NCBI GenBank assembly: GCA_019054805.1
Contig: JAHQIY010000034.1
Location: forward strand, 434,001 to 498,000
Reading direction: 5' to 3'
DNA from: Brachionus manjavacas
Taxonomy: Eukaryota > Rotifera > Eurotatoria > Ploima > Brachionidae
DNA: 64,000 nucleotides
A program made the position numbers and the translations under genes. Shown in pieces: positions 4,466 through 38,600 of this stretch; positions within the stretch are counted from its first letter, which is position 1; every line of letters starts with the position of its first letter. The notes under the pieces were generated by a model. The model searched no databases. It was given only the letters and a program-made list of their open reading frames with translations, and was not told the DNA's origin.

Positions 4466-5931
4466 GGGTCTTGTACCATTCGTGGACAATTGTAGATGTC
4501 TGATTGGTGGACAATTAAAAAAAAAAATAAAAAAACATAAAATACCTGGACAATTATTCAATTAGGTGGACAATTAATTGAAAAGTTGGACAATTTTATT
4601 AGAAAAAAAATCAATCAAAATAATCAATAAACTTAGTCTCTCTAATTATTTTTACGACTTCTTAAATTATATTTTATCGGCAAATCACACGTACTCTCTA
4701 TTGCTTCATTATTTCTATCGCTATTCTTCTTTCTCCCTCTTTTCTTTGGAGATTTTTTTTCGACAATTACTTGGTCAACATTTTCAAAGGCTGGTATGGT
4801 GGCCGGAGCATCTTTAATAAGATTTAGTCTAGCTATCTGTCTAGATTTAGGACTTCCGCTATCACTTACAACAACTGGACTCTCCACTCTTTCCATAGCT
4901 GAACTATCACCAGCCTGATAATCATGGTCTCCGTGGTTGTCATACAATGGAAGGTCATTTGAGATTAATTCATCATCTGAAACAACATCAAACTCTTCGC
5001 CACCAGTCTTTACTAAAGCTTCAGCCATCTCATTCATATCAAATCTACTTGAATCATATTTAGATATTTCGTCGATAATAGCATCAGCGGCATCACCTCT
5101 TCCGGTCAAACAAGCCTTACGACGCCAACAAAACTCAACTAAATATGACTCTAAATAATCTCTGGAAACACCCCTCATTACTTTGATATGCACCTTAGCA
5201 GCATTCCAAACCGACTCAATGCTGTTTGTGTGCACTCCGTTTTCTGGATTAACGAAATAAAGTTGATGATTGACCGTCAAGTGTTTGAAGTGTTTGTCTA
5301 AGTCACGGATACGACTATAAGCCTTCCAACAATCTGAGTAGATCAAAGTACCAGGAAGGATAAACTTGTAGATAACATTTAATAAATTGAAGGCATCTCG
5401 TTTTGGCACAACGATAAACAAGCATAGTTTGGAACCTCGCTCGTACATACCAAACACCCATATTTGCCTCCTTTTTAGATCCTTGCCTTTGTTGTGTTTC
5501 ACTTTGATAAATAACGATAAATAACTTTGATAAATAATGAACTTCATAGCCATCTGACATTTTGGACATGCTTTGGATTTTGGGATAAGACCTTTAACTT
5601 TGAACCATTCGACAATACTACTTTGATCAAGTTCAATAACCTCAATCGCTTTGAATGATTCAAGTGGTTTACTAAGAAGAGTCATTTTTTGTAAACTTTT
5701 TGAAAAATTGTTTTTTTCAAATGTGTTAGCAGAGAATTGAATCAAAAAAGAAAGCGCTTAAATTAATTGTGATTTTTTTTTGCAAAACAAAATACACTTT
5801 AGTTTTAATGGACAATTTTTCAAATACCTGGACAATTATTCAATTAGGTGGACAATTAGATAAAAAAATTGTCCACCAATCAGACATCTACAATTGTCCA
5901 TGGACAATTGTCCACGAATGGTACAAGACCC
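4466..5931 (-). mobile_element. Merlin/ISXO2-type DNA transposon with 8-bp TSD
   Basis: Termini are inverted repeats starting GGGTCTTGTACCATTCGTGG at 4466 and the reverse complement ending at 5931. The element is flanked by a perfect 8-bp duplication CATTTTTT (4458-4465 and 5932-5939). The ends are packed with the word TGGACAATT: five copies on the left, about seven on the right, in both orientations. A 37-bp block (4540-4576) is repeated in direct orientation at 5822-5858. The single long ORF inside encodes an IS1016/ISXO2-like transposase. Merlin elements are known for 8-9-bp duplications and this transposase type. The perfect duplication suggests a fairly recent insertion. Confidence 0.88.
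4642..5745 (-). CDS. ISXO2-like (Merlin) transposase, internally deleted
   Basis: A 367-residue ORF. Visible in order: a CPKC zinc-ribbon half (residues 60-63), then WVFG and a conserved core with YSDCWKAY (second catalytic Asp, about D139), LTVNH, NPENGVHTNSIESVW (catalytic Glu, about E178), then a 130-residue acidic/basic extension ending in an AT-hook-like KKRGRKK and a YNLRSR motif. In family members the first catalytic Asp sits between the zinc ribbon and KYxRG..WVFG. Here that stretch is replaced by a short segment encoded by a tandem GATAAATAA-rich patch (5500-5550), so the first Asp is missing although the frame stays open. The copy should be catalytically dead. The C-terminal extension is unlike bacterial relatives. 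Intact termini and target duplication argue that it is a transposon gene, not a domesticated one. Confidence 0.85.
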   Translation of the reverse strand: MIQFSANTFEKNNFSKSLQKMTLLSKPLESFKAIEVIELDQSSIVEWFKVKGLIPKSKACPKCQMAMKFIIYQSYLSLFIKVKHNKGKDLKRRQIWVFGMYERGSKLCLFIVVPKRDAFNLLNVIYKFILPGTLIYSDCWKAYSRIRDLDKHFKHLTVNHQLYFVNPENGVHTNSIESVWNAAKVHIKVMRGVSRDYLESYLVEFCWRRKACLTGRGDAADAIIDEISKYDSSRFDMNEMAEALVKTGGEEFDVVSDDELISNDLPLYDNHGDHDYQAGDSSAMERVESPVVVSDSGSPKSRQIARLNLIKDAPATIPAFENVDQVIVEKKSPKKRGRKKNSDRNNEAIESTCDLPIKYNLRSRKNN

Positions 5932-5939
5932 CATTTTTT

Positions 5940-6308
5940 TAGTGAAGTTTAGTCGAGTCAACTAATTTTGTGATTTTAAAACTAAACTTTTTTTGGATTA
6001 AAATAAAAAATCATATTTATTTTTTAGTTTAAAAACAAGTCTCTATTTATGTATATAAAGAATCCTTTTTGAATAATATTGAGATGAAAGAAAAGGACGG
6101 TGCAGGACCTCTATAGATTTGTATTTCGTTTATTAAGTATGGAGAATTAACTGATTAAAATATCTAAACCTGACATTTATGTTATCGTATGTTTCTAAGA
6201 GATCAAAGTAATGATGAATGTTAAAATAAAATTAAAAACATTAAATTTCAAATTTTAAAACTTTATTTAAAAAAATTATTAAATTATGTAAAACTAAAAA
6301 AAAAGATA
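5940..6308. other. No gene seen
   Basis: Sequence between the Merlin element's target duplication and the SWIM ORF. It is AT-rich with no supported feature. Confidence 0.5.
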
Positions 6309-6908
6309 TTATTTTTTAAAAGCTGTTGGATTATTTTCAATTTCCGAATTTATTGATAAAGACCTTTTGATCATATCATTCGACGACGTTTCGATACCTA
6401 GAATATCTTCATTTTCATCCGAGTCATAGGCAATAGGTATAATTACATCTTATAATCTCAACCCTGGTTTTGGTATATTTGTGATATTAAATCTATCAAT
6501 AGCCATAAAATAAATCAGTGCTGCTACATGACTACAACATCCCAGTGTCCTTTTTCCTGTTTTACAACTACAGACCCATGTAATATCATCTAATTGATTA
6601 GAATTTGAAACATCGATTAAATCATAAACATCGATTATTTTCCCATTCGAAGCTGTAATAACAAATGGCTTCACAAGAGGTCGATTTTTGTATCCACTAC
6701 GTAATTTCCTCTGAATCATATTATTTGAACTTTTTTGGCAATAGCTGTAATCTCCAACTTCAACTTTTTGCTTGAAAAAGCAAGTAAATTCTTTTGCTAA
6801 TTCAATGGTTTTAATTTCTTTTAAGTTTTTTTTCCCTATTAAATCTCCCCTTTTTTTACAGCCTGTGAATATAGGGCAAAATCGCTTAGAAAGTTGATCA
6901 AGAGGCAT
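6309..6908 (-). pseudogene. SWIM zinc-finger ORF, probably transposon-derived, with premature stop
   Basis: A 152-residue ORF (6450-6908) contains a SWIM zinc finger, CxC...CxH, in the form WVCSCKTGKRTLGCCSHVAA near its C-terminus. SWIM fingers of this WxCxCxxGxRxxGxCxH type are common at the end of transposon-encoded proteins in invertebrates. The frame is interrupted by TAA at 6450-6452, but on the other side the same frame continues with an acidic SDENED segment to a second stop at 6309, so the original protein ran about 46 codons longer. The N-terminal part is not recognised and no catalytic domain precedes it. I read it as the degraded 3' end of a mobile-element gene. Confidence 0.6.
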
Positions 6909-7384
6909 TTTTTGTAATAATAATGTTTAAAAAATTAATTTAAAATTCAAATATAAATTTTTATTTCAAAATTTTTTAGATTTTTTTTTGTTTTAAAAAA
7001 GCGTTTTTTTTGCATAACTCTTGGACATAATGAGATGGAAATTAAAAAAAAAAGGAAAAATAAATATACTCGGAAAAAGGCGAAAAAAAAAGCTTCAAAA
7101 TGAGCTATAATTTTAAATTTTAAGATTTTTTTTCAATATTGTAAATCGTATGCCAACTTTCAATGGAGATCCGGCACCCTTCTTTAAAAACCCTAAAATG
7201 AAATTTTTTGACCATTTTTCAAGTTAATAATCTGTCAAAAATAATATCCTTGTGAATTTAAATTAGAAAAAAAACACCCAAAAAAAATTATTTTGATGTT
7301 TTTCTAAATTTTTGCTTCTAATTTTACCAATGTTTTGAGAATTATAAAAAAATTAAATTAAAGGAAAACAAAGGAGCAGATAAT
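6909..7384. other. Upstream region of the F-box/LRR gene
   Basis: AT-rich, with poly-A/poly-T runs. The F-box reading frame is open back to 7322 without an ATG. A short ATG frame at 7031 (26 codons) is the only upstream candidate for an initiating exon; GGAGCAG at 7373-7379 could be its acceptor. Neither is secure. Confidence 0.35.
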
Positions 7385-10300
7385 TTGCTTAGCTCAAAAA
7401 AAACGCCTGTCCTACCGCCGCCAACAAATTCCGCACAATCAATTGTGAATAATCCAGACAAGCCCAATTTATACCGAAGAAAAACTGTCATAGGTTCTTA
7501 CCGAGAAAAAGATTCCAATCCACAAGATAAAGCTAAGAATGTTCCAATTCAATCCATTGATTTATTTCCCAACAGAACTCAACAGCCTGATCAAAATAAT
7601 AATTCAAAAGTTAAAAAAAAACCAACCCAGAGCAGAAATCCAATCTGGGAATCATCAGTTTTGAAAAGACCAGGTTCAGCATCCAAATCTTTAGCTGCCA
7701 AAAGCGTTAGAAATTCCAACCGGCCAGTATCTGCTGGCCTCTTGACATACTCAAAGCTTATTGAAATCGAGTCCAGCATTCAGACCGAATTTAAAAATCA
7801 GACTAAAAATGATGAATCGGACAAAAATGAAAAATGGAACGAAAGTGAGAAAAATGAGTTTTTGAGCTTTAAAACAGATTGGTTAAATTTGCCAGATGAA
7901 ATTTGGTTGAGGGTTCTAAAGTTTCTAAAGCAAAACGATTTGGCCAAATTCGGACAAACATGCAAAGCATTCAATTACTTGTACAAAGACAATTCTTTAT
8001 GTAGTTTTTAAAAAATTAAAAAATTTTATCATAGTTAAATTTTTCAAGGGCGAAAAATTGAATTAAAGTACGAATATGATGTGAAAGATGAATGGCTTGA
8101 CTGGATCGGCAAGCGCAGACCAAATGAGCTCAATATTGTTCAATGTTCTGGTCATGTTAGTCTAAATGGAATAACCGGAATGTTCAAAAATATTGGAGAA
8201 AATTTACAGGCAAATTAACAAATGATTTGTTTAAAATATTTAATAATTCTTTTTTCTAAAGGAATTGAATTTAAGTAGATGTTCTGGTGGATCATTGTCG
8301 GGTGATAATTTTGCCCTTCAAGCCTCAATTCGGTGTCCAAATGTCACAAGTTTAGACTTAAGCTGGACTCTTTTGTCAAATCAAACCCTAAAATTGATAG
8401 TTGATTCCTTTAAAAAGTTATATTAAAAAAATTTTTTTTTATTAATTAAAAAAAATATTTAAGAATCGAGTCGATAAATCTCAGCGGTTGCAACATGATA
8501 CAAGAAGATGGATTTAATCAACTTTTAATTAAGCATGGAAATAGGTTCAAATTAAGCTTTATCTTTAGTCTACATTTTGACTAATACTTTAGTTTTCTAG
8601 TTTGAAAAATTTAGAGATAGCAGGATGCATACATTTTTCATCGGATGTCATCTTTAACATTGGGTGCTATTGTCGTAGTATAGAAAAATTGAACATCAGC
8701 AATTGTCATCGAGTAAGCTCAGAGTTTTATTTAGATTAAAAAAAATGATTAATCATCTTAAAAAAAGATTAAAAATGAATCAATTATCGAAGCTTGCCCG
8801 CAGTGGCTTAAACTTAAATGCATAGATCTCCGAGGTATAAAAAATGTAAGTGAAGAATTTAAAAGCTTTAAAATTATTTCGAATTAGAAAAGATTTGATA
8901 ACGAAATACTTTTTATGTTGTTTCCTAATTAGAGTTGATATTAAAGTTCATTTTTAGCGAAAGTTTCAGACTTTCGAACTTTTGAAAAGAAAAAAAACAA
9001 TCAGGAAATTAGAAAAAAGTCACTAAAAAATCAATTTGCAGGAGAAAATCACTCATCGTGAAAAATATTTCCTGATATAATATTTTAGGGGAATATGATT
9101 TCAGCACAATCAATTTCTGATTAGCACAATGAAAAAAACATTCAACACAATTCAATTTCTTTTAAGCGCAAAAAATTGTATTTAAAAAAGAACAACATTT
9201 AACACAAAAAAATTGTGCTTGAAAATAATTCTTAATTAAAAGAAATTTTTTTCAACACAAAAATTTTATAATATAAGTATTAAATTTTATTTTTTATTCA
9301 ATGATAATAAAGTATATTTCGAAGCTTAAAAAAAGAAATTAAAAAAAAACTAGTCTCTAGAAAACCATTTTTCTGCATTTTTTGCTCTACCTCTTTTAGG
9401 TTTATTGACAAATCGGTCCTTTTTTTAAACAGTTCTTTTAATGCCAATAAATGTGCACAATATCCTAATTCAGTGAAAAACTTGCAAGAACATTTCTAAC
9501 TGTTAAGGTTAACTTTATAAAAGGTAAACTTTAGTTGAATGCATTTCTTCAATTTTTGTGCTAAAAGTATTTTTTTCAAATTTTAATTTTTGTATTGAGA
9601 AGAAATCATTTTGTGCTGAGCGTTTTGAAATTGTGTTGAATGGTTATTTTTTTTTGTGTTGAAAAGGTAGACCCATATTAATAATAATTTTCAGAAATTA
9701 AAAAAAATGTTAAAAAACTATTGATTAAATGAACATAAATTTAAGCAGATTAATTATTGAAAATTTTAAAAGACAATTTAAAAATTCATTTTATGCAAAT
9801 GAAATTAAGAAATTAATTAACTTAATTAGTTAATTTACTTTTTTGTAAACTCTATGAACACAAAAAATGTGTAAAAGTATATTAAGAATATTTAAAAATT
9901 TTCGCATATATTAAACCAAGTTTATATAAATTTTTTTTAAATTCATTTCAAAATTCTAGTTATTTTTTGTCAAAAATATTTTTGCCATAAACATGGAAAC
10001 ATTCACATAGGCTGACAGCGATCTTTCATAATTAGGCATTTTTACCTAAAATTAGGAGAACGATCAAAAAAAAGAAAAGAAAAAAAAAATTTATTTAATA
10101 AAAAAGTGAAGAGAGAATAAAAAAAGAAAAAAAATCGTTTAAATTTTAAAAAATTAATTCTAAATTTTTTTTATTCATTTTATCGGCATCTTAATAATTC
10201 TATATTTTTTTCATTCCTTTTTATATACTGATATAAAATTAAACAAATGGAGTATATTTACGTAAAGTTCCTTTTTTAATCAGGAATGTAATCACAATTA

Positions 10301-12515
10301 TTAAAAATTTTTGTCTTTTTTAAATATTTAGAAAAAAATCACCATCAGGGTTGTGAAGTTCATTTCAATTCAATCGTTTCAATTCAGAAAAATTTGAATA
10401 ACTTTTTTACTAAAAAAGATAATTTAGTTCTGTAAGATGCTTAATTTTTAAGCACGCCATTTTAATTTTTGTTTTGTTAAGAAACTAACAAAAAGACTCA
10501 TAAACTCTCTGAACTCATCTTTGTCATTTTGTTGTTTTAAATCAAAGAGGACTACATGTCTAAAAAATGCCTTTTTGAATTAAAGCCAAGATTATTTGAT
10601 TATTACATTTGAAAAATGGTACTTACTATTATTGACCTAAGATTTAGGTTAATATTTTGATTTATTGCTAATTTTTTAAAAAAATCAAAAATATATTTTA
10701 GTTCACTTTTGAGTCATAGTAGAAATACATGGTAATGGGATTTTTTCGCCTAGATAACTGGATCATCCGATTTTTGGAAGACACGATGAAATTTTTTTCA
10801 AAGTAGCGATAGCTCTATCTCTTACCCCATTATTTACTTCTTTATAGCATTGCCTAACTGACTTATCATTCTTCTAAACTTTTTTTTTAAATCTTGATTT
10901 GCTTCTAGTATTAAACGTGTGAAACTGTTAAAGGGTCGTGATAATGTTGTCCTCTCAATTTTATTACTTGGTCTCCTTTTAGAGTCAAACTTGCATAGCA
11001 TTTTGAATCATGTTGAATTGCATGCACCTAGTTGAATTTTTATTGTCATCTTTCCATCTATAACGATATCCTTTTAAGATCTCTTTTTGGTTCGATTTGT
11101 TTTGCAGAGTGATACCATAATTGCTTGATAAGAATTTAAAAGTTTTTTATTTTGATTTAAATACAGTTTAATTTAAAAAAGTATATGAATTTATTTTATT
11201 TTTTTATGCATTTGTGTGAATGAAGTGTTTGAATGTTGAATGAATAGTTTCTTTTTACTTACATGTTTTCTTTGTTTCTCAGAATGAGTCTATACAAGAA
11301 AAAGAATAATCCTTAAACATTTTGAAGCTGGTTATTTCTAGTCCTAATAAAATTATTAGTAATTTTTAAACAATAATTTGATGAGAAAATTTACCTTTTG
11401 TTAAATCAAAAAAAAATTACCAATTTCTATTATTTTTTAGTTTGAAACTTTTTTTCAAAAACAGTATAATTTCATTCTTTCCTGAATTAATCAAATTAAC
11501 AACATGAATAGAAAATTCTGTCAACTAAAGTGGTATTTTTTCAATAGGACATAACCAAAACAATTTTTAACTTTCTTTCATAGTTTTGTAAGTGGGTTTT
11601 CAACACCTTGTCTTAATAAACTTCTTTTTTGCTTGAATAAATCTTTGGCTTAGAAAAAAAAAACAAAAAAACAGATCTCTTCAAAGAATTAAGCTTTTTG
11701 GTAGAAATCATTTTTAATGATGTACACAATAGAGAGAATGGTAGAGTCTTGCAGAGATTTGCTTTGAGGGGAAGCAAAATGCTGATTTAAATTTAGTGAC
11801 TTAGATTGTTTTGTTGAATCCTGTAAAATTTTGAAATCATTTAAAAAAATTTTAATTTGGTTAAAATTCGAACTGTCATTCTTTTATTTAGTTGAAACAA
11901 AAAAACAAGCATTTTTTAAAAATATTTTGTATTTTTTAGATTAAAAATAATTGCATATCAACTCTGGTGCGAAAATGTCCTCATTTGGAAGGCTTATCGT
12001 TAGGTGAATGTGTACATGTTGGTGATGCATCTGTGGTAGAAATTGCCACATACAGATCTGATATTAAGCAATTGGATTTGTGTAATTGTAAAAAAATTAG
12101 TGATGCGTCTATTCGCTCAATGGCTGGCATTTGTTCCAAGCTTGAATTTCTAAATCTTAAAGGAACAAATCTTACAGATTCAGGGTAACTAGTTTATCTA
12201 GAAATACCTTTTTAATTAAATTTTTTTTCCTATAAATTTTAGATTGATAACTCTTTCGGATTCAAGTTTTATAAAAAAAATTGATGAGCTGAACTTGAGC
12301 TTTCTTCCGATAAGCGAGTTTGTTTTGGTGAAAATTCTCAAAAATGCTGAAAGGTAAATTTTGAACATTTTAACTCAGAGAAAAAAACGACAAAATTTTT
12401 TCAATTTAGTCTAAAAAAAATACATTTATACGGGTGTTATAACATAAAGCGCTTGGACGACATAAAGGAATCAATCGGAATAAATGAAGGCAAAATTCTA
12501 GAGATAAACATTTGA
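7385..12515 (+). CDS. F-box / leucine-rich-repeat protein (FBXL type), 9 exons
   Basis: Exons: 7385-8000, 8049-8209, 8262-8416, 8464-8544, 8601-8712, 8768-8845, 11940-12184, 12243-12353, 12410-12515; all phases agree and give about 554 residues. Residues 1-155 are low-complexity Ser/Lys/Pro-rich. An F-box follows (LNLPDEIWLRVLKFL ... CKAFNYLY), its usual SLW restored across the first intron. LRRs of the CP.L..L.L..C type continue to the end. FBXL proteins are substrate receptors of SCF ubiquitin ligases; the substrate cannot be inferred. Most introns are about 50 bp, but intron 6 is 3.1 kb and holds a MITE. Intron 2 is GC-AG (CAG then GCAAAT). The initiating ATG is not identified; 7385 is a TTG in an open frame, so the start is provisional. 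AATAAA lies at 12555. Confidence 0.88.
8846..11939 (+). other. Long intron 6 of the F-box/LRR gene
   Basis: Begins GTAAGTG and ends TTTTTTAG. It holds a Merlin-type MITE (9088-9674). The rest is AT-rich with no exon-like sequence I can support; a 25-codon frame at 10731 is probably chance. Confidence 0.7.
9088..9674. mobile_element. Merlin-type MITE built of CAACACAA words
   Basis: The right end reads, as reverse complement, GGGTCTACCTTTTCAACACA. The left end is a degenerate match (GGGGAATATGATTTCAGCAC). Both halves carry repeated CAACACAA/CAGCACAA words, all pointing inward, for example 9102, 9116, 9135 and 9590-9660. Flanks ATATTTTA and ATATTAAT match at 6 of 8 positions, a plausible aged 8-bp duplication. 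No ORF. Confidence 0.55.
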
Positions 12516-12689
12516 AAAATTCATTTTGTTATCTTTTTGATAATTTTTGAAAAAAATAAATAAAAAATTCGAAATAATTTGAACTCTTTTATTTATGAAA
12601 TAATTTGGGATACTTTTTAAAATAATAAATAATTTCTGTAAATATTAGCAAAAGTTTTGATTCAATTGAGCGGCTTTAGAACGCTGACT

Positions 12690-14180: not shown

Positions 14181-14240
14181 CTTGAGTTTTGTCTCGAATA
14201 TGAACTGGCTCTTTGCTAGACACAAATAATTAGATTCCAT

Positions 14241-16012: not shown

Positions 16013-16014
16013 TA

Positions 16015-16638
16015 CAGTCGTTCCTCGGTATAACGAGCAAGTTGGGCGAAAATTTTTGTGATCGTTATATCGAAACTCGTTTTATCGAAATCCCATTGAA
16101 AAAGATGGGCAATTTTTATTTTTTTATTAAAATTTTTATTGAAAAAGTTAAAAAAAAAAGATAAATAAAACTAAAAATTGAGCTTTTTTTAAAAAATCTG
16201 TAATACTGGATTGTTTGGTTTTACATTTTTCTAGTACAATATTTTCAGTATTAAACAAAAAGTCAAAAATATCGTGGTTTTTAACGAAATTCCATTTCTC
16301 TCTTTAAACTTGCACAGCCATCCATTACTAGCTTTGAATTCACGATGGCCTAACATTGTCGCAAGCTTTAGAGCCTGTAGTTGAATTTCACTTATTTCAT
16401 TTAGAAAGTGAAGTGGTAGTTATTTTTTGATCGCAATGTTTTTTTATAATTTCTATTTTAGTCTCAAGCGGAATACACTTTCTTTTTTTTTGAGCAAGTT
16501 TATCTGTCATTTTTTTCAATTAGATTAGACAGTCAAGTATTTTCAGTTATTTATATTCAATTTAAAAAGGTTCCAGGTAAAATATTCGTTATAAAGAGTA
16601 TCTCGTTTTCTCGGTCTCGTTATACAGAGGAACGACTG
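16015..16638. mobile_element. pogo/Tigger-like element with TA duplication
   Basis: Inverted ends CAGTCGTTCCTCGGTATAAC (from 16015) and CAGTCGTTCCTCTGTATAAC (reverse complement, to 16638), each flanked by TA. This terminus style (CAGT..TTCCTC..TATAACGA) is that of pogo/Tigger elements, and the interior carries remains of the matching DNA-binding domain on the minus strand. Confidence 0.85.
16239..16510 (-). pseudogene. pogo/Tigger transposase N-terminus, frameshifted remnant
   Basis: From an ATG at 16510 the minus strand encodes a basic stretch and the first helix-turn-helix (KRKCIPLETKIEIIKKHC), then stops. After a frame change it continues with the start of the CENP-B-type second domain: ALKLATMLGHREF followed by KASNGWLCKFKERNGIS, whose W-L-xx-F-K-x-R signature is characteristic. 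The DDE catalytic domain is absent. This identifies the surrounding element as pogo/Tigger and shows it cannot encode its own transposase. Confidence 0.75.
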
Positions 16639-17153: not shown

Positions 17154-20100
17154 TTAATCACAATCAATTTCTACCACTTCAACCACTGAGCTCTTTTTAC
17201 TCTTCGGCAAATGACACGCATTTTGATCAAAATCAAGCTCACAACTATCAAAACTCAAGTCAGCCTCCAAATTTCTTTTCCTAGTTTTCAGTTCTTTGGT
17301 CTCATCACTCTGGATTTTTTCAATTTTTTCAATTTTTTGATTCTTTTCAATCTTTTTAGCCTTATCGCTTGGCGGACCAGTTCTGTCGATAAAAAAGAAA
17401 CTATCATTTTTTAAATGTACACTCAACGGACCTGGTACTATATAACAAATTGTATTGTAAGGTGTGAAATGAAAATCTTCTTTTAGGTAATTATTCATCA
17501 GCATGGTCAATATTAATTTTTCTACTTCATTTTGACTCAAATTGTTCGGATAGCAATGCGATTTTTTATTTTTAGAGACAATTTCTGAATAAACCAATTC
17601 AGCTAATTTGTTTGAAGTGATTTTTTTGTCAGATTTCGGCCTTTCCACTAAACTCAGAACAAAACATGCTTCTTTGTGAACATCAATTTTTTCAATTCCA
17701 TTTTCATTTGAATTCTTACAAAAATCACACATCAAATTGCATTCACCTTTATTCTCCCACACATCATCGTTGAAGTGTCTAGCTATCAATTTTCGTTTGC
17801 AGGTTTTTTTATCAATACAATAGTTAACAATTGAATACAAATTTTCCAAGCCTTGAACGAAAAATTTAAACCAAATAATCCAACTTTTAAAATAGCATAC
17901 CAGTTTGTTCAGTGAAAACCATGGTACTTTGACGAAAAACATCACCAAATCTAAAAAATAAGTTAACTAAAATGCTCACTTGAAGATAATGAGTGACTTG
18001 TAAGTAAAAAGCAAAAGAGCTAAATTTGTTTGAATCAACCTACAGTGACGCTGCGCTTTTTGTACCACAATAATAATCAAAAATTTGTAAAACAAAAATT
18101 TCCAAAACATTTAAGGCCTTAGACGTTTCCTTTTTGGTTTGGAGTTAAGTACTTGATGGTTTTTTTAGATAAATTTTTTTAAATTAACTAACAAATTAAA
18201 ATTACATTTTATAATTAACTCACTCGAAAGAAACCAAAGCTCTAAAATTTTTTTGAAATTTTTGCTTTTTATCACAATCTACGAAAATTCTGGTAAATTT
18301 ATGGTATTTTATTTTTGTAAATTTTCGTAAATTTACAGCATTTTACGTAGATCGTGGTTGATTTGGCAAGGGCAAGGGTCAATTATCGGGTCTATTGCGT
18401 TATGTGATCACTGGTTCACATAAAAGGTGAACCAACTTACCCAACCTAAATAGGTGATCAGTTGTGTTCACTTTTTAGGTGAACCAAAAATATGTGTACT
18501 AATTAATTAAAAATTTTTTCAAAATGATCACCTAAATTAAATTGTGTTCACCTAAAATGATACTTACCAAAAAAATTATGACAAAGTAAATAAAAATTTG
18601 ATTTTTCAAAATTTTAGCTTTAATAAATAGTCATCTTATTTTAAAAAAATTGCAAAACTTTCGCACTAAAAATATTAAAATTACAATAAAATGCTTGAAA
18701 TAATAATTTAAGAAAATTAAATTTCTAGAAAATTCTATTTTTTTTGGCTCACCTATAATTCAAAAAAATTAAAAAATAAATTTTGATTTTCGAAATAATT
18801 TTTTTTGTACACATATTTTTGGTTCACCTAATAAGTGAACACAACTGATCACCTATTTAGGTTGGGTAAGTTGGTTCACCTTTTATGTGAACCAGTGATC
18901 ACATAACGCAATAGACCCCAATTATCTTAAATGGTCTTATTACTGAATTACTTAATTATTAGTATTTACTTATTATTTATTACCACTATTCATGATTTCT
19001 GTCTCATTAGAAGTAATACTACTGAAACACAAATCATGATTATGAAACTTAATCTCCCCGAGAGATTATTAATGAACAAATTCACTAAAAATTTTTTGAT
19101 GGCTTTAGCTGAATGTGGAGTGTCTGGAGACTACATTGACGAGCTAAATCAGTACACAGAAGACATCAAATTTTCGTAATTATTTATTATTTTTTTAGGG
19201 AACTTGCTTTTTTTTGTTTTTTTTCTCTTTCATATATATAAAAACAATTTACACTCTCTAGGTACACTTTCTTAACTGTGAACCATGTTTGTGGCTGGTA
19301 AATCGACTTTTGCTCAAATAAATAAATAAATAATTTGAAGTAAAAAACAAAAAGCGGAACATCATTGCATATATTAAAATATACCAAATATTATCTATAA
19401 TATGGCAAAAAAATTTTTTAAAAGGAGGCTAAATGTTGCTGAACCAGAAATTTTCTGGAAACCAGTTAAAATTTAACTTCACAAATTAAAACCAGAGCTT
19501 GTGGTACACTTAAATAAGTAAGGAATCGCCCAGTCACTAATGATTTACGAACTATTTAATTTAAATTCGACGATCTAAATTAGCTAGTTAATTTCATAGA
19601 AAATAATTGATGAAAAACTATTTTTCAAGTAAATAGTATCTTTTTAATCTTCTTAATTTTTCACAAAAATTTTTAGAATGAAACAAAAATTTAGAAATAA
19701 GGGTTTTTTTCACTCAAATTTTGTTAAATCATTTATTTCATTTCTATAAACGATTTAAAATTTCTATTTTTTAAAATAGTTTACTCATCCCAGACAAATA
19801 AAAAGATGTTCACTAAAAAAAAAAAAATCTTTAGAACATATGAGTTTGCTTTACAAATTTTTTTTGATATAAAGAGAAAAAAAATTCATAATTTAGTTTT
19901 TTTTTATATTATTTTTTTTAATTTAAAAAAAAAAGAATTAATAAGAGGTAAACCGTTTAAGTCGAACTCGGTTAAGTCAAAAAAGCTCAAATCCTGAAAA
20001 ACACAAACGAGTTAGAGTAGCTAACTTCGTTCAGTTTGATAAGAAGAAGCACTTTGTTGAAGGACCAAGGAAGCAAGAGCTTAAAAAATATCTATTAATT

Positions 20101-24377: not shown

Positions 24378-25080
24378 ATAATAATAATAATAATAATAAT
24401 AACTGCAACAGGAACCGAAGTTTCCTGCAGAGAATGATAACAATAGATACCACTTTATGGCAGATGTGCTATAAATTTCATTTATTATGCTTCTTAAATT
24501 TGTCGTAGTTGTTCTTGAATAGGTTAACATTGGTTACATTTGTAGTTTTAATTGGTAGATTATTCCAAATCGGTACTATTCTGTTCGAGAAAAAGAACTC
24601 TCTTTGGTCACAATTTTTCGTAATTTGTCTCATGTATCTATTTTTTTTACCTCTTATATTATTTGCTGGACCATCAGCAAAAACAGAGTGTGCAATACTA
24701 TTAGGATGGTACCAATCAATTACGTTTATTTTAGTTTCTATTTTGAAGAATTGAATAGCGTCTCCTCTTTCTCTTCTCTCTTTTAAGGTTGTAAGCTCAA
24801 ATGTAATCTTTCGAGATAAGGCAGATGTCTTAATTCATAAACAAGTTTTTTTGATCTTCTTTGAACCTGTTCAAGTATCTTGATATCTTTTTGACGATAT
24901 GGTGAGCAAGCTGCAGATGCATATTCTAAATGCGGTCTTATAAAAGATGTTTACAGAGTCTTGAGTGTTGCTACATCCCACTTTTTAATTGTTCTTTTTA
25001 GTTGACCAAGTACAGAGTTTGCTTTTTAAGCTGCCTTTTTTGAGTGCTCGCACATTTTTAGATCGTTTGAGATTTAATAC
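24378..25080 (-). pseudogene. 3' end of a non-LTR retrotransposon (reverse transcriptase C-terminus)
   Basis: On the minus strand: FIRPHLEYASAACSPYRQKD, then ILEQVQRRSKKLVYELRHLP, LKRERRRGDAIQFFKI and RIVPIWNNLPI. This is the typical C-terminal segment of Jockey/CR1-like reverse transcriptases (RPHLEYAS..W.P, VQRRATK, RR.RGD, W..LP). After the stop come a GGAAACTTCGGTTCC hairpin and an ATT microsatellite tail (24379-24412), as expected at a LINE 3' terminus. The frame is broken in places and the 5' part is missing. Confidence 0.8.
24379..24412. repeat. (AAT)n microsatellite
   Basis: About ten AAT units. It sits at the 3' end of the minus-strand LINE fragment and probably began as its tail. 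Confidence 0.85.
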
Positions 25081-28404: not shown

Positions 28405-31400
28405 ATGAGCAGAAATTCGACAGTATTTATTTTCCTTCTCTAACAATCTAAATTAATATTCAAACGATTTTCGATAGAAAAACGATAAGACACCAAGACA
28501 CAGTGACGCTGATGCTGTCCCTGAGTTGAATTTTAAAAAAATTCTTTCAAAACGGCGATACACTGTCGCTACTTCAAATGGAAATTTGAATAACGATATC
28601 AGGAAAATGCTAGAAAACTTGTCAAAACGAAAGTAAATAAAAATTAAAATAAAAACATTTAATTTGTCTTTTTTTTAGAACTGATAACGAGGATACAATT
28701 GGAAAATTTCTTAGAAACCGCTCAGATTCAAAGTACTTAAATTGTCTTGGTTTTTTTTTAAATATTTATTTGAAAATTCTTGCAAAATATTAAAAATTTA
28801 AAAAAAAAATTTTGTGGAAAAAGTTGAGATAATTGATTAAATTCTGGAGGAATATAGTAAAAGCAGTTTTTAAATTCAAAATTTTTAAGTCACAAGATAA
28901 TCGTTGTTGATTCTTTTAAAATTTCTGGATAATATCTTAACTACAAATTTTCATAACTTAAAAACTTTGATTTAGAATGCAATAATCTTTAATTTTTGAA
29001 TGATCAACTCAAAAAGATAAGTTATTTTGTATGTTGTCAATGATATTAATTAAAAAAAATTCATTTTAACATGATTTAATCTAAAAAGAAACATAAAAAA
29101 AGAGGATTTAATTTTTCTTTAATTTTAATGTTTGACACTTATTCCAGCTTTGAAATTTTCAATAATTAAAATAAAATGAATTCTATGTTTGCTCATCTAA
29201 ATTAATTTTTTTTAATTCAATCACTTAAATTTCAAATTGGTTGTGAGACTTTAATTAATAGAAAAATTTTAATTTTGTATTTGTGTATTTTGTCTTCATT
29301 TTAAATCGATTAAAAGAAAATCAAATTTATTTTAAAAACCAGTTTTTTTGGTTGCAATTTTTTTGCAAAATGTTTTAAATTCAATTTTTTGAAAATTATG
29401 GTTTTGATTATTATTAGATCTTATTTTAAATAAATTTTTATAACTAATTTTATTTTAAAAACACAATCAAAAAATTAATCAAAAATTTGTAAATATCTAT
29501 TAAGTTTACAAATTTAATGCAGCGTTCTTTAATTACGTCTACCAGTAAATTAAAATTTAACTTAGAATCAAATTTAATACCAAGAAACTTGATTTATTTT
29601 TGGCTCACTATTCTATTTCCATAAATTTTTAAGTAAAGATTATAAATCACTTTTTTGTACTTAGAAAAGACTACTGAACACGACTTTTCGACTGATTTCT
29701 TCATTTTCCACTAAAGAAGCTATTGTTCTAGTTCGTTATTATCTTATTTTCTAGATTCCCCTTTTTGTTGTACATGAAGAATGTAACAAGATCATCTGCG
29801 GAAAGCATAGAGTATTCATTGTTTTGTTTCTTTTGGGGATGGCATTAATATATATAGAGCCTTGAGGGGCACTTGCGGATCTAATCCAGTCAGTGAAGTA
29901 ATGAGGTGGGTTCATTTTAATCAATTTGTAAACTAAACCTTCAATAAGATAAATTAAAAAGTTCAGTGATTTCTATTAATGAATTTCTTGGTAAGATTTT
30001 TAACTTTAAGTTATGAATTTGGTCAGATTCTAGCCACTTCATTTTTCAATCTTTTAAAAGCAATAATTAATTCATTTAAGCAAATTGGATCATTAAAACT
30101 TCACTGTTTTTAATTTTTAAAGAAGCATTTCCTTTTTTTTAATTCCTTACCATTTGAAATCAAATTTGGAATTAAATTTGATCCTTTTTTTTGATCCAAA
30201 TCTGTTTATTTTTTACAAAAAAATTTACTTGTCAGCGGGTTTTTCCCATTTTCTGAATGAATTTTGATTACAAATTTTTTTTTAAAAAGGCCTTAAACTC
30301 AAATGTAAGGCTCTTGGCAGTAAGTTTTCTGAAAGTTTCTTCAAACTTTCCTTCGTTCTTTTATCAGATTAACAATGTTCAGGGGAAGATTGGTTTAGTA
30401 GATTTTCTGAGAAAGGTAAGTAATGCTTTTATGTTTAAGAGAAATGATTTTTTCTGTAATTGTATCATTTAGTTGATCTATAGTGAGGGAACTTTCAGTG
30501 ATATTAAATATTTGAGAATCTAAAATCTCGCTGAATTTATAGTTAAACTTTTTAGCTGCTGATATTTTTTCTATTTGATTACCCATAGAAATAGATGCTT
30601 CAAAGTAATTCTTATTAAAAATATTAAAGGTAGGACGCTTATCGTTGATTACTGAAAAGTCTAATTCATAGATTATTCTTTCCAACATAATACCGTTATC
30701 ATTTTCCACTACGCAGCTAATTTGCTTTGTTCTGTCGTTTGGGTCACCACCTATAATGTTGTATCTACATTTTTTATTAACTTTTTTAAAAAGCTAAAAG
30801 TTCCGAATGCATTGGGTGGATAATAAAGACTAAATACAAATCATTAATTATTCTTTCCTAAATTCGGTTTTATACTAAGGAGTTCGGAATTGAATTTCTC
30901 ATATAAAAATATTAAGCAGTTGCAATTTCAACGTGTCAAAATAAATCTTGTTAAATTGATTTTTTCAGAATCAATAGTAATCCGATAAAGTGACAATAAA
31001 TTTTCACAAAAAAATGTAATTAATGGTATCATGTCGGTTTGGTGAACATATTAATCACCAAATTTCTATATTTGTATTCTTCAAAAAATTTTAAAAAAAT
31101 TACTTTTTTTTAAATTTTAATTATTAATAAAATTTAATGTTTTCCCAAGTGATTCTCCCAAAAAAAATAAAAAAAAATAATTTCCTTTTGTTTGCCTTGT
31201 AACAGTTTCAAATTTTTTTCACGTCTATTTCAAAATTGCTCAACACGGTGCTGAAAGTGAGGTAAATTACCATTTCAACCTTCCCGAGGTCCTCACTTTA
31301 CCTTTATCTTAATAAAAGCAAATATTTGATTTTATAATTAAATGATATTGTAATTAATTAGAAAACAACGCAAGGCTAAAATTATTTAATAAATTTTAAA

Positions 31401-32117
31401 ATAATTACTAAATGTAATGTAACACTTTTTTTGTCTGATTACATGAATTAGTTTCACGTGAAAAAAAGGTGACACAAGTAGGGATTCAACTAATTCAAAG
31501 TATATATTCTTCCCTCATCTCCTGGTAGTAGGCTCGCTAATTAATTTATAATTTATTTAAATTAGTCATATCATAGGTATAATAAAAGTGTAATAAAATA
31601 AAGAAGAGATAAATTTGCTTCTCAATATATTTTAAAGTTATTTTTACTTTTTTTTCTCAAAATGCGCCTTTGTATTTTTTATTTTTGAATAAAAATCGAT
31701 TAGCTTTTTTTTAAATGACTTTAATAATTTCACTCATGCGATTGCTGAATACATTTCAAAGCAATTATTTTAAGTTAAACTCTTAGTTTTATGTCGTTCA
31801 AGAGTTTTGGCTGAAAATTTAATTTTTTTTTGACAAACAATTCCTGTCACAGTAAAGATTTTTATTGATGATTTTTTAGCTACGTTCATTTAATGAGTTG
31901 AAATTTTAATTGAAAAATTAGTCTGAATGTTTACGTTTCAAAATTTTAACCAAAAAATAACAATTTCTCTTTCTGCTGATGTTTGCTTTTAATTTCTATT
32001 TTCCAGATTTCAAAATTAAAGACAAACAATAAGACAAAAATCTCCAGGAAAATTGTGACAAAAAAATTTATTCCAGCCACTAAATCAATAAAAAAGAGCG
32101 GAAACAAAAAATTCTGA
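28405..32117 (+). CDS. Hypothetical small multi-exon protein
   Basis: Recovered by splice logic, not by a long ORF. Exons: 28405-28422 (ATG), 28478-28632, 28679 to 28732-28749, 31206-31260, 32007-32117 (TGA). The acceptors at 31206 and 32007 have strong pyrimidine tracts, and the phases of the first three and last two exons agree. The join between exons 3 and 4 is uncertain: the best donor (28732) is in the wrong phase, weaker donors at 28743 or 28749 fit, and an exon may be missed. The product is about 115-120 residues, rich in Lys/Arg/Asn/Ser, with FKKILSKRRYTVATSNGNLN, KMLENLSKRKTDNEDTIGKF and a highly basic C-terminus (KTNNKTKISRKIVTKKF). No signal peptide or known domain. A dead LINE lies in intron 3. 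It ends about 370 bp before the androglobin X-box. Confidence 0.45.
29510..30840 (-). pseudogene. Dead non-LTR retrotransposon: endonuclease to reverse transcriptase
   Basis: Read on the minus strand from 30840: endonuclease remnants (LYYPPNAFG, then NIIGGDPND, NGIMLERIIYELDFSVINDK, RPTFN), a linker, a basic segment (about 30400-30240), RT motif B (APQGS joined to IYINAIPKRNK by a deletion), the catalytic box as YSMLSADDL, and a thumb segment QIKFLGIKFDSKLNF. Order and spacing match Jockey/CR1-type elements. Several frameshifts and the PQGS/IYIN deletion make it inactive. The 105-codon ORF at 30395-30709 is its longest surviving frame. It sits antisense in intron 3 of the hypothetical gene. 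Confidence 0.82.
31254..31316 (+). other. 9-bp stem-loop followed by AATAAA
   Basis: AAAGTGAGG (31254-31262) pairs with CCTCACTTT (31291-31299), and AATAAA follows at 31311. It overlaps the end of exon 4 of the hypothetical gene and its donor (GAG then GTAAAT at 31261), so it could influence splicing versus early polyadenylation. Confidence 0.4.
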
Positions 32118-32485
32118 AAAAATTGCCTCAATCATTATCGATTTAAATGAATTTAATTGTACACTTGATTTAGTTTTTTCGCAACTTAAACATTACCTTT
32201 TAGCTAAACTCCAAGCTAATCATTGAGGAATAATTAAATTAAATTAAATAAATTGTCCCAAAATGGAGTCACCATTCGAACGAAGGTCTTCTGTCAAAAA
32301 TTCATCTCGAATCGGGTTTGTATTTTATTTTGCTAGCTTAATCCAGCTCAATGGTGTCCGATCTAAATTTTAAAACGATTGTCAGATTAACTAAGCTTAA
32401 GTAAACTTCATTTTTGATAAATTCAAAAATTAATTATTTCATGTAGCCGAATATTGTAGACCTTTAAAATTTAAATTTTCTAACT

Positions 32486-32499
32486 GTTACCATGGCAAC
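32486..32499 (+). promoter_or_regulatory. RFX X-box in the androglobin promoter
   Basis: GTTACCATGGCAAC is a perfect match to the X-box consensus GTNRCC(0-3N)RGYAAC and is itself palindromic. It lies 107 bp before the androglobin ATG and directly upstream of TATATAAA (32500-32507). RFX factors use such sites to drive ciliary genes, and androglobin is known as a cilium/flagellum-linked gene. Binding here is inferred. Confidence 0.65.
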
Positions 32500-32605
32500 T
32501 ATATAAAATATTCTTTGCGTTTTTTTTTCTAAGCTGAAAATAATCAAAAGAAAAATAATAATTTAAAACAAAAAATTTAATTTAGCCTGTTATCTCCGAA
32601 AATTA

Positions 32606-35600
32606 ATGAGCCAAACTAAGAATTCGGCAAAGAGCGGCCTATCGGGTAACCGAAAAGCCGTATCACCAGCAGGAAAAGTCTCGTAAGAAGAGTTTTAAAA
32701 AAAAATTGATTAAATTGATATAATAATTAAAAAAGTCTCTTTTGAAAATTTTAATTTTTTAATTTTTATTATTATCAAGGGTGAGTAGTGTTGCTGCAGA
32801 GCCAAAAAAACAAAAATTACCAATATGGCCAGAATGGAATGAAACAGACATCAATTCTGAAAAATGGGAGGTGGGTGGAAAGGCCAAAGATAATAAATCT
32901 AAACCTGCCAGTGCACCGGTAATTTATTAAATCGCTCAAATTCAATTAAGATAAATTGGCAAATTTTGCAGATGTCAAATGGCTTTGAGGATCCGGATCC
33001 AAAATTTGAATGGCCACTAGGCATTCAATCAAGAATTGAGACTTTCAAGAGACCATCTGACATTTTTGAAAAAATTCCATTAATTGTTGATCCTGATAAT
33101 GGCCTCGAAAATTTTGATTTAATATCCCCCAACGAGCATCTTCATAACAATGAAGTATTTGATCCCATTTTTTCTGTAACAATTTTTGAGCAGCTTTTTG
33201 ATGTTTAGACCATGCGATGGATAATCAGCCAAATTCACAGCCTATGGGATATGTCCAAGAAAGATGTTAGATCACCAGCATTTCTGGGTAGCTCGCCATA
33301 TTTACAAGATATAGACATAAACTCAAATAAAGCGCTTGCAGCTGGTAGACTTTGGAGACCTTGGGAGCATATTTATGCTATTAACAAAGTGGTTAAAGGA
33401 CCATTTATTCCAGTTTACAATCAATATGGAAAATATGCAGTTAGACTTTATTTTATGGTGCCAATTGAAAAAAAAAATTTTCCTGTAGTCTAAAAAATTA
33501 AATTAAGGGTGTCTGGCGTAAAATTATTGTCGATGACTTGATTCCTGTTGATGAAAAAGGAGAAATGCTTTTACCACAAACTACTATTCCAGGTGAATTG
33601 TGGCCAATTCTACTTACCAAAGCTTTGCTAAAAATAATTTCACTCGAGTATATTTTTTTAATTTTTTTAGATTTATTTTTTAAAATTAAATTGGAAGCTT
33701 TAATCCTTCTGACTCAGCTTCAGAGTTTAATGACGCCAATGTTATAACTTGCTTGACTGGTTGGTTGCCAGAACCTTTGCCTTTGAGATTCGGTCACATG
33801 AGTGAAGTGTGGAAGTTTTTGAAGGAAACTCTGCCCAAATATCAATGGCCTGATGATAAACCCAAAAATCAGCTAGATGATGATCAAACTCTCCTAATTG
33901 TAAGCTATTAATAATCTTTACTTTACATAAAAAATTAAATTTTTGTAATCGCCGCGGCTTAAAAAGGCAATTAATTTTGATTTAAAAAAAACATTCTCAT
34001 TTAAATTTGACTTAGACTTGTGACTCCAAAATTTAAAAAATTTATTAAATGCAAATTTTGTTAAAGGACTCCTCGGAAATAAAAGACGACAATTTAGATA
34101 AGGACACGCGTTCTGATCAAAAACTAAATAAAAAAGCCAAAGACCCCAAAAACATGTCCGGTAAGGACACAAAATTGCAGCACAAAAAAGACCAAAAAGA
34201 CAAAAAGGGAAAATCTATGAACGATGAACCAGCACAAGAGGAAAATTTTGCTCCCGAATTTCCTGAGATGGTGGTATTTGCGAGCTTCACCGATCTTCCA
34301 CTAAATAAGCTATCAGCCAGCACAGAGGTGGCTGATCGGCGTGAAAAACTTCGAAAATACAATCTTATCCATGACTTTTCGAATCCCGTTTGGATAACTT
34401 GTACTCGCGATGTACCACTGAATCCTCCTCCTCCACCTGAAAAAATTCCGGTCTGGAAAACAATTAGACAAAAAAAGAAACATGTTGTACCATCTGACGA
34501 ACCAATAAGTAATTTTTTCTCTCTATAACTGATCAGAAGGGAACTAAGTTCTTCCTTTCAGCCAAATGTTTCAGGATTCTGATTATTAACTAATGTGATC
34601 ATGTGATCACAACTTTGGTAACCAAGAAAAGAATAGAAGAAAAATTAAGATTAGAAAAAACAAAACAAAAAATATTTAATTAAAAAATTATAATGGAATA
34701 ATGAAAGTTAAATTATTTTTTAATTAATTAAATACTGTGTGATTTTGCTTTATGACCTTTTACGCTCATTTCATCCTCGAAATAACCACTACACAAGTCA
34801 CTTCGTAGGATTTATCTTTTTGCTCAGGCTTGAAGAATTCTTCTTAAGCATATTTTTTTTCATTAGTATTTAATATGATGAATTTGTTAATAGAAACTAA
34901 TTAACTTAATTTATTTGTTAACTATCTGATCTTTAGTATTTTTCTGTGATCATAACAAAAATTTTGTGTTCAGCCTTGGTCACAGATAAACAGTTATTTT
35001 GGCAACAAAAAAATTGTAGCGAAAAGTGTCAATTCAGCAAGCTATAATTACAATTTTCTTTTATTTTTTGTCTCTTCTTTATTTTTTTTACTTCTCCTTA
35101 AAGGAGGTTAATTCAATTCAATAAATAAATAAAAAAATAAATAGACAATTTATAATTATTCGAATGATGAAATTTTTAAATGTCAAAAATAGCTACTAAA
35201 AAAAAATAAGTACCTAAATTTAAATTCTTTTATTGATTGATAATTTACCTCAAGATTCTTGTAGTAAATTATCAATTGAAAATATCATTTCAATTCAGAG
35301 AGTTTATCACTAGATCCAAAAAAAAAATCTATGAATAAATTTGGATAATTGTAATGTAACATCATTTAAATTTAATGAAGATTTGAAAAATAAAAAATTC
35401 TAACACATTTTAAAAATTGATTTTAAATTTAAGTTTATTTTTTGTCAAGTTTGTTTTTAAATTTTTTTTTTCAAAAGTTTTGCTAGAAAAGTTCGATCTT
35501 TTTTTTACTATTTTTTTACTATTTACTATTTATTTTACTATTAATATTTGAATTTTGTTTTTAAATTTAATTTTGAATGCTAGATACAAATACTTTTGGA

Positions 35601-38600
35601 ATAAAAAATTTAAAATAAACTTCTCAAAAAATCAATTTTTCAAATGTGTCAAAAATTTAATTTTTTCATTTTTTAAATTTACATTACATTAAAAGCCTGC
35701 TTTTTAAAAGTTATATGATATTTTATAAAACAAATGACAATTGTCTTTTTAATTTTTTTTTTAAATTAAGTCATTTTCTATTAAAAAGATTCGACTTCCA
35801 ATTAAGTGATAGGAAAATATGATATCCCTTTTAAATTTCTTATTTATTTGAAAATTTTGAATTAAATGATAATTCAAAAATTAAAACGTCAATTAATGCT
35901 ATACTATTTGCTAAAATGTGAGTAGTCTCAACTTTTCCTCCCATCTTTTCTTGGCTTGAAATTTTTTTTTTGAATTTTGATACAAAAAATATGGTCACAC
36001 TGACCAAAGCTATCACATAATTATCCGAACTGATTTTAGTACTTGATGTTTTACATGATTTCATAATCCTTTAAATTAGATAACTAAAGAAGAGTTAAAA
36101 ATTTTCAAAATTTAAGTTGCTGCTCCTGTGAAGCCTGACCAGTGGATAGAACTTAAATCACCATATTGTAGCTATAAAGCAGCAACGCCAGTCTCTGTAA
36201 TGCATACTAATCGATCAAATTCGCGATATGGCCGTCTAAAATCAAGGCCCCAGACTGCCATTCAAGGTATCGAAGAGATCGATGAGAAGAAATTAGATAG
36301 TAATTTGTCCGATTCCCAGTATGATTTAAAAACTATTGAAACAGAGGTAAACAAAATTTATTTACAGCTTTAGAATGTAAAATGGTAAATTTAAGAGTGG
36401 TGATTCATCCAAATCTAAGAATACTTCTAAATTGGCTTCGGATACATTGAACAAATCTAATTCTTCGGCTAAAAAAGAAAACAGTTTGGATGTTAAAGAC
36501 AATGCTAGGAACAGGGCACCGTCAGTGTCAAGCAGTAAGAATAAAATTTAATTCAAAAGAAAAAAATCAAAAAAAAAATATCTTTCAGTGTCTAAGGTGG
36601 GAAGTACTGCAAAATTTGATGAGGATCAATCGAAATCGGCTAAAATGAGTAAAATAAAAATAATTTATTTTTTATGGTTTTAAAAAAAATAAAGCTGTAG
36701 CTGGTCAAGAAACAGCGAGTTTGAATAATGCAACAAATCCTTCTACAATTGGAATCGAGCATATCAGCAACCTTGAAGTTAGAAACAGTGAAAGCGACTC
36801 AAAGCTAGTTGATGAAAAAAACAAGCTTTGGATGGATTTTGATGATTTTTTCATTTGTTTCAAGTAAGTCTATCATGAATTAATTTTTTCAAATGATTAA
36901 TAATAGAAGTAAATAAATGTAGTAGTAATAGTCATAGTCTTTTGGGTTGAGTATTGTAAAAGCTACTACTGTATTGTTTACAGTTGATACTGTCAATTTT
37001 GAAATAAAAAAAACAAAAATCAAAAAACTCAGCCAACTTTTTCCTAAAAGGCCCAAACTAGTTTCTGTAAATTTTATCAGCTGATGCATTTAAAGTAACA
37101 TCTTATCCCAACTTCTTCAGATACTCTGCAAAATAAATTGATTGAATTTTTACAGAGGCTAAAATAAGGCAGAATTTACAAAAGTAATTTTGAACATTGA
37201 GGAAAATAGTTGTTGGTTTTTTTTTATTCATTGAAAATTTTAAAAAAAGTGCTTAATTTTTTGGTTATTTTTGAAAATTAAAATTTGATTGAACTGAGGA
37301 CATCATATCGTAAATCCTTGCAAACTATCCCAGATCTAGCGTAAAATGGGAATAGCTCAAAATGGCATCGTTTAAAAAAGCAATAATTTGAAAAGGCGTA
37401 CAGGTAAAAAAAATATCAAAATAGCTTAATTATTTTTTTTTTAAATAAAGAAAAAAATGTTTTAGAATAGATTAATTGCCTTAATTTTTAAATAATTCAA
37501 TAAATCTAAAAAATTTTATTCAAATAAGGTGTCAATAAAAATAAAATCAAAACCTAATTTCTCATTATTTATTTATTAATTTAATTTAGCACCAATTCTG
37601 GCGATATATTAAAATTAAAAAATGTAAACTTAAAATGTAAGACAAAAATAACGATACAATTTAGAAATAGAAACTTAAATTTGTTAATTTAGTTTCAATT
37701 AAAATAATAATTTTTAAATTTGTAAATATAAGAGATTTAAAATAAATTTTTTTTTCCAATTCACTGATTGCTTCTAATTAAAATAAGCTATTTTGATACA
37801 TGCTTTTTTTATTACTTAGCTATTCTTATTATTTTTTTTTTATTTAAAGCTATTTTGATTTAAGCTAAATTAAATTAACAAAAAATTTACCTGAGAAAAT
37901 TGATGAAAGCTATTTCAATTATAGCTATTTTAAACGTAGCTATTTTGAGATAGAGCCGCGTAAAATAGATATATTTAAAGACATTTAACTAGGAAAATAA
38001 TTATTGTAGAAGCAATTTTTATATTTTCGAGGAGCAGATTTATTATTATTTTTTAGCAAAAAAAAGAAGCAATTATTATATCAATTAGGAGCAAAAATAT
38101 TTTTATTAATAGAAAAACAAATAAAAAAAAACAAATATAATATAAAAAGGCAAATTCCAATTATTCAATTAACTAATTTAGTTTATTTGTTTTATTTTTT
38201 GATTTCTCACTTTCTTATTGAACCGAAACTGTTTTTTTGGACGACCTCGTCCTCTTTTTTGCGACGCATTAGTATTAGAAGTCGATTGAGTAACTACAAA
38301 TTCGCTAGCAACTGACTCAATTGTGTTAACTACGGTCGTAATAGGAGTTTCGGCATCAGTTGAAGTTGTTGGAATTGAAAAAAGCTCTTGATTTAAAGGT
38401 CCGATTGATTTTCTTTGAAATGCTGGTAATGCTTTTTTACGACGACCTCTTGAGGAATTTTTTCGATTCTTAAATCTATAGTTGGGAAAGTTAGCAACTC
38501 CAAATTGTACGCGATACCAATGACATGCTTACAAACGAATTTCTTTTTCCAAAATTGACAAGAACGAATAATAGATGTTGATGATGACTCTTCAGATTCA

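Follow-up and report, generated by a model that had tools for sequence, protein, structure and literature searches.

Merlin DNA transposons share a DDE_Tnp_IS1595 transposase domain, a GG tip and target-site duplications (TSDs) of 8 or 9 bp, and at least seven families that differ in their inverted repeats and have 8-bp duplications have been described from a single genome (PMC8101967, in part; the portion available makes no mention of 'subterminal' words). In the bacterial IS1016 group of the IS1595 family, ISApl4 has the ends GGGGCTGTACTAGA, inverted repeats of only 14 bp and A/T-rich 8-bp duplications (excerpt of PMC12561309). For the binding of transposon ends, the closest demonstrated parallel is offered by piggyBac and piggyBat, which combine a short conserved tip with reiterated motif-and-palindrome binding sites; the palindromes carried by their tips are unrelated, and the domains that bind them differ in fold (PMC11707139, in part). 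They belong to an unrelated superfamily, and binding and structure have been demonstrated there, whereas here binding is predicted from the ends. Mutator-like elements (MULEs) have TSDs of 8-11 bp, and a SWIM zinc finger is listed for many of their groups (sections of PMC6446971). Here, we analysed a window of 64,000 nucleotides from the rotifer Brachionus manjavacas (assembly GCA_019054805.1, contig JAHQIY010000034.1, positions 434,001 to 498,000 of the forward strand; positions below are those of the window), in which a sequence-only reading had recognized four insertions (E1 to E4, Table 1) as one set of Merlin-type elements. These insertions are mostly real, but their grouping as one set did not hold; the observation as a whole is partly confirmed and its interpretation partly supported. 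A literature search on Brachionus together with Merlin gave no match.

We propose, with a probability of about 0.72, that E1, E3 and a fifth element missed earlier, E5, are built on one Merlin end frame with drifted words, that E2 belongs to another superfamily, most likely Mutator-like, and that E4 could belong to either. Judged by its sequence, E1 is a copy of a Merlin DNA transposon: its transposase matches DDE_Tnp_IS1595 (PF12762) with E=2.2e-20 and 73.7 bits (cut-off 27) and NF033547 with 75.2 bits (cut-off 75). It shares this domain and an 8-bp TSD with the IS1016 group (bacterial loci L001 and L002), and its tips are close to the ends of ISApl4 (excerpt of PMC12561309). As in Merlin, the duplications of both E1 and E3 are exact at 8 bp and the inverted repeats start with GG at all four ends; the exact TSDs read earlier for these two elements, and GGGTCT on both ends of each, were borne out.

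The ISXO2-like transposase that had been assigned to E1 does have the Merlin domain, but its first catalytic aspartate has been lost, apparently by an internal deletion, and in this E1 differs from the Merlin superfamily. The profile match starts at position 27, positions 1-26 with this aspartate being absent, and an alignment to L001 and L002 shows 13-bp repeats in place of the first-aspartate block. No complete catalytic DDE triad was found in E1; the lost triad would mark a dead Merlin copy and gives no reason to exclude E1 from Merlin. When three transposases were used as tblastn queries, no further Merlin gene was detected in the window, nor was any intact Merlin transposase found there. 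In viral_contigs, ten stretches fitted the pattern for the E1 protein, with no relative among them, and the exact inner-end patterns of E1 and of E3 had 0 matches each. The inner arrays of both ends of E1 repeat the word TGGACAATT in direct, not inverted, orientation with a 20-bp period, 12 of the 13 copies in the window lying within E1, and the right end holds 14 extra bases, TGGACAATTGTCCA, that are not in the left end. A candidate older inverted repeat that encloses E1 (arms 4325-4354 and 6029-6058) has a score of 35, which is insufficient for a call. An open reading frame (ORF; 6450-6926, minus strand) that lies some 520 bp to the right of E1 matches the SWIM zinc finger PF04434 with E=0.00033.

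The sequence-only reading had described the inverted repeats as unrelated beyond their first six bases and each element as having its own unrelated word. The former is true of E2 and E4 but not of E1 compared with E3 and E5, and the latter proved too strong. The tip GGRTCTW is common to E1, E3 and E5 (the right tip of E5 being decayed), and at base 17 all three have a word whose first letters are GTGNNC (E1, E3 and E5 carry GTGGAC, GTGATC and GTGAAC); bases 17-32 of the right end of E1, of E3 and of E5 can be read as a dyad in which two half-sites flank 4 bp. Such iterated short words, with a first dyad at base 17, set these ends apart from the Merlin superfamily as described. In register over bases 7-32, E1 agrees with E3 and E5 at 12-14 of 26 positions, with a position null of 0.002-0.027 in all eight pairs, whereas for cross-element pairs involving E2 or E4 this null is always at least 0.22. 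The pattern GGRTCTWN9GTGNNC has five matches in the window, namely both ends of E1, both ends of E3 and the left end of E5, compared with an average of 0.01 matches per shuffle (100 shuffles); when two mismatches are allowed, there are 19 matches versus a mean of 10.

By their sequences, E3 and E5 belong together, having in common the end frame, the word GTGAAC (nine of the 29 window copies lie in E3 and eight in E5) and a word module repeated about 50 bp further in. Counted from the tip, the words start at bases 17, 27, 40, 67, 79 and 92 in E3 and at bases 17, 27, 65 and 76 in E5, which was recognized from an inverted repeat at 57025-57516 plus its GTGAAC words. The two ends of E3 match at 32/32, and in a scan of the whole window, on both strands, with its left 32-mer, no place outside E3 scored higher than the two ends of E5 (23 and 22/32), which were followed by one place at 20/32 and then, at 19/32, by the right end of E1. 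E5 lies within a larger inverted repeat (56612-57819, arms 56612-56672 and 57760-57819). A stretch at 34579-34984 has GTGATCA words, the 7-mer GATCACA four times in a 600-bp window and a 20/32 match to the E3 end at 34579, and is possibly another decayed E3-like end.

E3 has no trace of Merlin coding (best 19-mer score 23), which a non-autonomous element would lack. Within E5 there are short stretches resembling a decayed Merlin transposase (Table 1). Its best 19-mer score versus the catalytic domain of E1 is 44, compared with at most 39 both in 102 other 591-bp segments and in 300 shuffles, and the next-best place for the E1 segment concerned scores 24 (127,882 six-frame positions). The motif [VILC]E[IV]DE[ST].[FY] has a single occurrence in the window, in E5, upstream of this 19-mer on the same strand; it occurred in none of 60 random sequences. 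Through this decayed stretch, the GTGAAC word type of E3 and E5 can, with caveats, be tied to Merlin.

Several observations weigh against placing E1, E3 and E5 on one Merlin frame. Their likeness is modest, the eight pairs compared are not independent and the nulls are uncorrected; GGRTCTWN9GTGNNC was composed after the ends had been seen; and there are one or two copies per lineage, the ends and words resting on single sequences. E3 itself is without a coding trace. The flanks of E5 agree at only 6/8 positions, 402 of 20000 random intervals being equally good, and its right tip is decayed. The coding stretch of E5 has stops and frame changes; its pieces have no Pfam match (0/3) and, for the one piece compared, no NCBIfam match; a small hidden Markov model of our own (four bacterial sequences plus E1) did not detect the stretch; and a bacterial first-aspartate consensus scored with BLOSUM62 put the E5 block outside the top five. 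In a scan of all E1 19-mers, moreover, an N-terminal one also reaches 44 at 35490-35496, outside any element. The likeness of E1 to E3 and E5 might be due to chance or convergence, as a dyad-binding transposase acting near a GGG tip could place a GTG palindrome there, and the per-pair nulls stem from at most one or two independent comparisons. We regard this alternative as possible but doubtful: the base-17 offset, the half-site skeleton and the tip are identical, and the coding stretch of E5 resembles the E1 transposase.

Our preferred reading separates E2 from these three elements. Four of the six window copies of CAACACAA lie in E2, and its words are present at both ends. Of its two tips, the right one is GGGTCT and the left one is not, and its imperfect 8-bp duplication is no better than chance, the best TSD obtainable with ends moved by up to 3 bases being equalled in 621 of 2000 random intervals. 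Merlin coding sequence was not found in E2 (best Merlin 19-mer score 28); instead, it contains a SWIM zinc-finger remnant that matches PF04434 with E=0.0011 and 18.9 bits, just under the curated cut-off of 19.6. A basic tail in the next frame is probably the frameshifted continuation of this piece, although the E2 piece at 9350-9424 has no Pfam match. A PDB search with the SWIM piece returned a single weak match (E=0.76). The remnant points to a transposase superfamily other than the one proposed by the sequence-only reading, an outcome that this reading had itself named as contrary to it, and E2 is most likely Mutator-like rather than Merlin. Pfam showed no MULE catalytic domain in the two E2 pieces scanned; it may simply have been deleted.

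E4 had been credited with an exact 8-bp TSD and a start of GGGTCT or a close variant. Its duplication is really of 9 bp, the ends matching at 31/40 in this register and at only 13/40 in the 8-bp reading, which we rejected on this ground, and neither of its tips is GGGTCT (Table 1). E4 holds six of the 12 window copies of AAATAGCT. No transposase coding was seen in its frames, which were read by eye and scored versus the Merlin domain only. A 9-bp TSD fits both families, and E4 could be Merlin or Mutator-like. About 220 bp to its right, on the minus strand, lies a SWIM-like stretch (recognized by eye) with a RGRRKKALPAFQ tail in two frames (38178-38653); neither piece has an NCBIfam match, and 38178-38528 has no Pfam match.

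That E2 and E4 are both non-autonomous MULEs, Merlin-like only in their GGG start, is a reading that we put at about even odds. It would account for the SWIM remnant of E2 and for the 9-bp TSD of E4, which lies within the range given for MULEs (sections of PMC6446971), and the left tip GGGAATA is common to both elements. On the other hand, no MULE catalytic domain was seen in the window sequences scanned (10 ORFs, four pieces and three pieces), E4 has no recognized coding, and the inner ends of the two elements are unlike, with a position null of at least 0.30 in three of four end pairs and of 0.83 in the fourth. The SWIM zinc finger, furthermore, is not confined to MULEs. Much less probable, in our opinion, is the view that all four insertions are Merlin elements whose word arrays are unrelated to one another, each array fitting a transposase of its own. 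GGG tips are indeed shared: E1 and E3 have GGGTCT at both ends, E2 has it at the right end only, and E4 has GGCTCT at the right end. Moreover, the TSD lengths in print for Merlin allow the 9 bp of E4, and at least seven Merlin families with different inverted repeats can coexist in one genome (PMC8101967, in part). However, E2 encodes a SWIM remnant, E4 with its 9-bp TSD offers no coding clue, E1 is similar in register to E3 and E5 and hence not unrelated to them, and E3 and E5 have one word in common. A single Merlin set of E1 to E4 was rejected because of the SWIM remnant together with the clean split in the register comparison of bases 7-32.

The G+C content of the window is about 25%. With an exact 8-bp TSD plus a 32-base inverted repeat of at least 22 matches, five pairs were found, namely E1 (30/32), E3 (32/32) and three others at 22/32 each, compared with 0-2 pairs in each of 30 random sequences, a null that somewhat underestimates the background, as these three other pairs indicate. 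Four further pairs with 9-bp duplications also reach 22/32. A looser test, requiring a bare GG tip, an exact TSD and a 7/12 inverted repeat, is not beyond chance in the window: there are three pairs with 8 bp (null mean 1.25, maximum 3) and one with 9 bp (null 0.6, maximum 2). Since this loose test is at chance and further pairs reach 22/32, duplications alone prove little in this DNA, and the case is carried by the longer inverted repeats and the iterated words. GGGTCT occurs 14 times, five of these being element ends, versus a mean of 5.4 and a largest value of 12 in 100 shuffles. The iterated words reported for the individual elements are real. The commonest 7-mer with at least three G/C occurs 12 times in E1, seven times in E3 and five times each in E2 and E5, compared with at most four times in 1131 overlapping 600-bp background windows; in E4 it reaches only two because the word is A+T-rich. 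These results are also a warning that GGG tips with 8-9-bp duplications are insufficient for superfamily assignment in A+T-rich DNA.

How transposases and their sites change together is, in our view, an open question for many cut-and-paste transposons. In the mechanism that we propose for E1, E3 and E5, a full-length Merlin transposase, supplied by an intact copy elsewhere in the genome, would bind the reiterated dyad half-sites, pair (synapse) the two ends and cut at the GGG tip; insertion with staggered cuts would then produce the 8-bp duplication. The catalytic complex would allow no change in the tip or in the place of the first dyad, while the sequence of the half-sites and the number of inner copies could vary along with the DNA-binding part of the transposase in each lineage. 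It is plausible that each word is matched to its own transposase, as the sequence-only reading had suggested. More tentatively, Merlin ends could follow a two-part code, in which the catalytic complex holds a fixed frame (the GGRTCTW tip and a dyad half-site starting GTGNNC exactly at base 17) and half-sites and copy number drift with the DNA-binding part, so that drift of the words and turnover of the arrays give rise to new, mutually blind Merlin families within one genome; we consider this general form rather unlikely on present evidence. The 14 bases that differ between the two ends of E1 could exemplify the turnover of such arrays. Should the frame hold in many copies, Merlin would provide a natural series for the co-change of transposase and binding sites around a fixed cutting site. 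It is already known that one genome can contain several Merlin families whose inverted repeats differ. The fixed-register dyad would be a modest new detail; it was not met in the portions of published Merlin accounts covered by a narrow literature search.

PF12762 is present in 119 of 297 bacterial genomes in one scan and in 46 of 298 in another, and among 66 loci with this domain, 13 have an exact 8-bp TSD with inverted repeats, compared with one of 300 mismatched pairs. Some places are represented more than once among the 66 (L001/L004, L002/L005 and L003/L006/L007), and for most of the loci the end of the transposase match is approximate. One 9-bp pair, at L060, may be due to chance. A GG tip was found in only three of the 66 by a looser test, the GGCTCAAG tips of L047, L048 and L051 being looser matches; most of the others have CG tips. 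The tips mostly start with CG in ten of the 13 loci with TSDs, which argues against one tip common to the whole PF12762 family.

Table 1. Positions of the elements, their parts and two tRNA genes in the window.
Feature	Position	Strand	Remarks
E1 left TSD CATTTTTT	4458..4465		exact 8 bp; right copy 5932-5939
E1, Merlin element, apparently internally deleted	4466..5931		1466 bp; tips GGGTCTTGTACC; exact TSD; ends 30/32; PF12762
E1 left inner array	4547..4595	+	TGGACAATT at 4547, 4567, 4587; 20-bp period
E1 transposase reading frame, stop to stop	4642..5757	-	371 aa; DDE_Tnp_IS1595 at residues 87-213
13-bp repeats, putative deletion junction of E1 transposase	5501..5537	+	3.1 copies
E1 right inner array	5809..5857	+	TGGACAATT at 5809, 5829, 5849
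E1 right end, bases 17-32	5900..5915	-	GTGGACAATTGTCCAT; site of the 14 bases not in the left end
E2, element with CAACACAA/AGCACAA words	about 9088..9674		tips GGGAATAT (from 9089) and GGGTCTAC
E2 basic tail, next frame	9359..9415	-	RFVNKPKRGRAKNAEKWFS
E2 SWIM zinc-finger remnant	9433..9495	-	KCSCKFFTELGYCAHLLALKE
E3 TSD CAATTATC	18380-18387 and 18919-18926		exact 8 bp
E3, non-autonomous element	18388..18918		115-bp inverted repeats, 98% alike
E3 left end, bases 17-32	18404..18419	+	GTGATCACTGGTTCAC; right copy 18887-18902, minus strand
E4 left TSD GCGTAAAAT	37339..37347		9 bp; right copy 37958-37966
E4, non-autonomous element with AATAGCT words	37348..37957		tips GGGAATAG and GGCTCTAT
tRNA-Gly gene	55332-55402	+	
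tRNA-Asp gene	55462-55533	-	
E5, decayed element	56976..57566		left tip GGATCTAG; right tip decayed, TTGTGTAG
E5 flanks			AAAAAACA / GAAAAACT; 6/8 alike
E5 left end, bases 17-32	56992..57007	+	GTGAACCATAGTTCAC
E5 KGNDLRRERI*VFRIMERV	57246..57302	-	10/19 identical to E1 transposase KGKDLKRRQIWVFGMYERG
E5 CEIDESAF	57371..57394	-	like first-aspartate block of IS1595/Merlin transposases
E5 right end, bases 17-32	57535-57550	-	GTAAACTATGGTTCAC

Elsewhere in the window, ORFs have Pfam matches to androglobin, a bHLH factor, RecQ-type helicase domains and an F-box, in keeping with an animal origin of the DNA. The ORFs at 24478-24834, for which there is no Pfam match, and at 38903-39151 (minus strand) resemble fragments of non-LTR retrotransposons. 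Two more inverted-repeat elements lie at 1-451 and 1181-2173, the first of which starts at base 1 and may extend beyond the window. The inverted repeat at 51725-53871, with 389-bp arms that are 99% complementary and 1369 bp apart, is either a large foldback of recent origin or a feature of the assembly.

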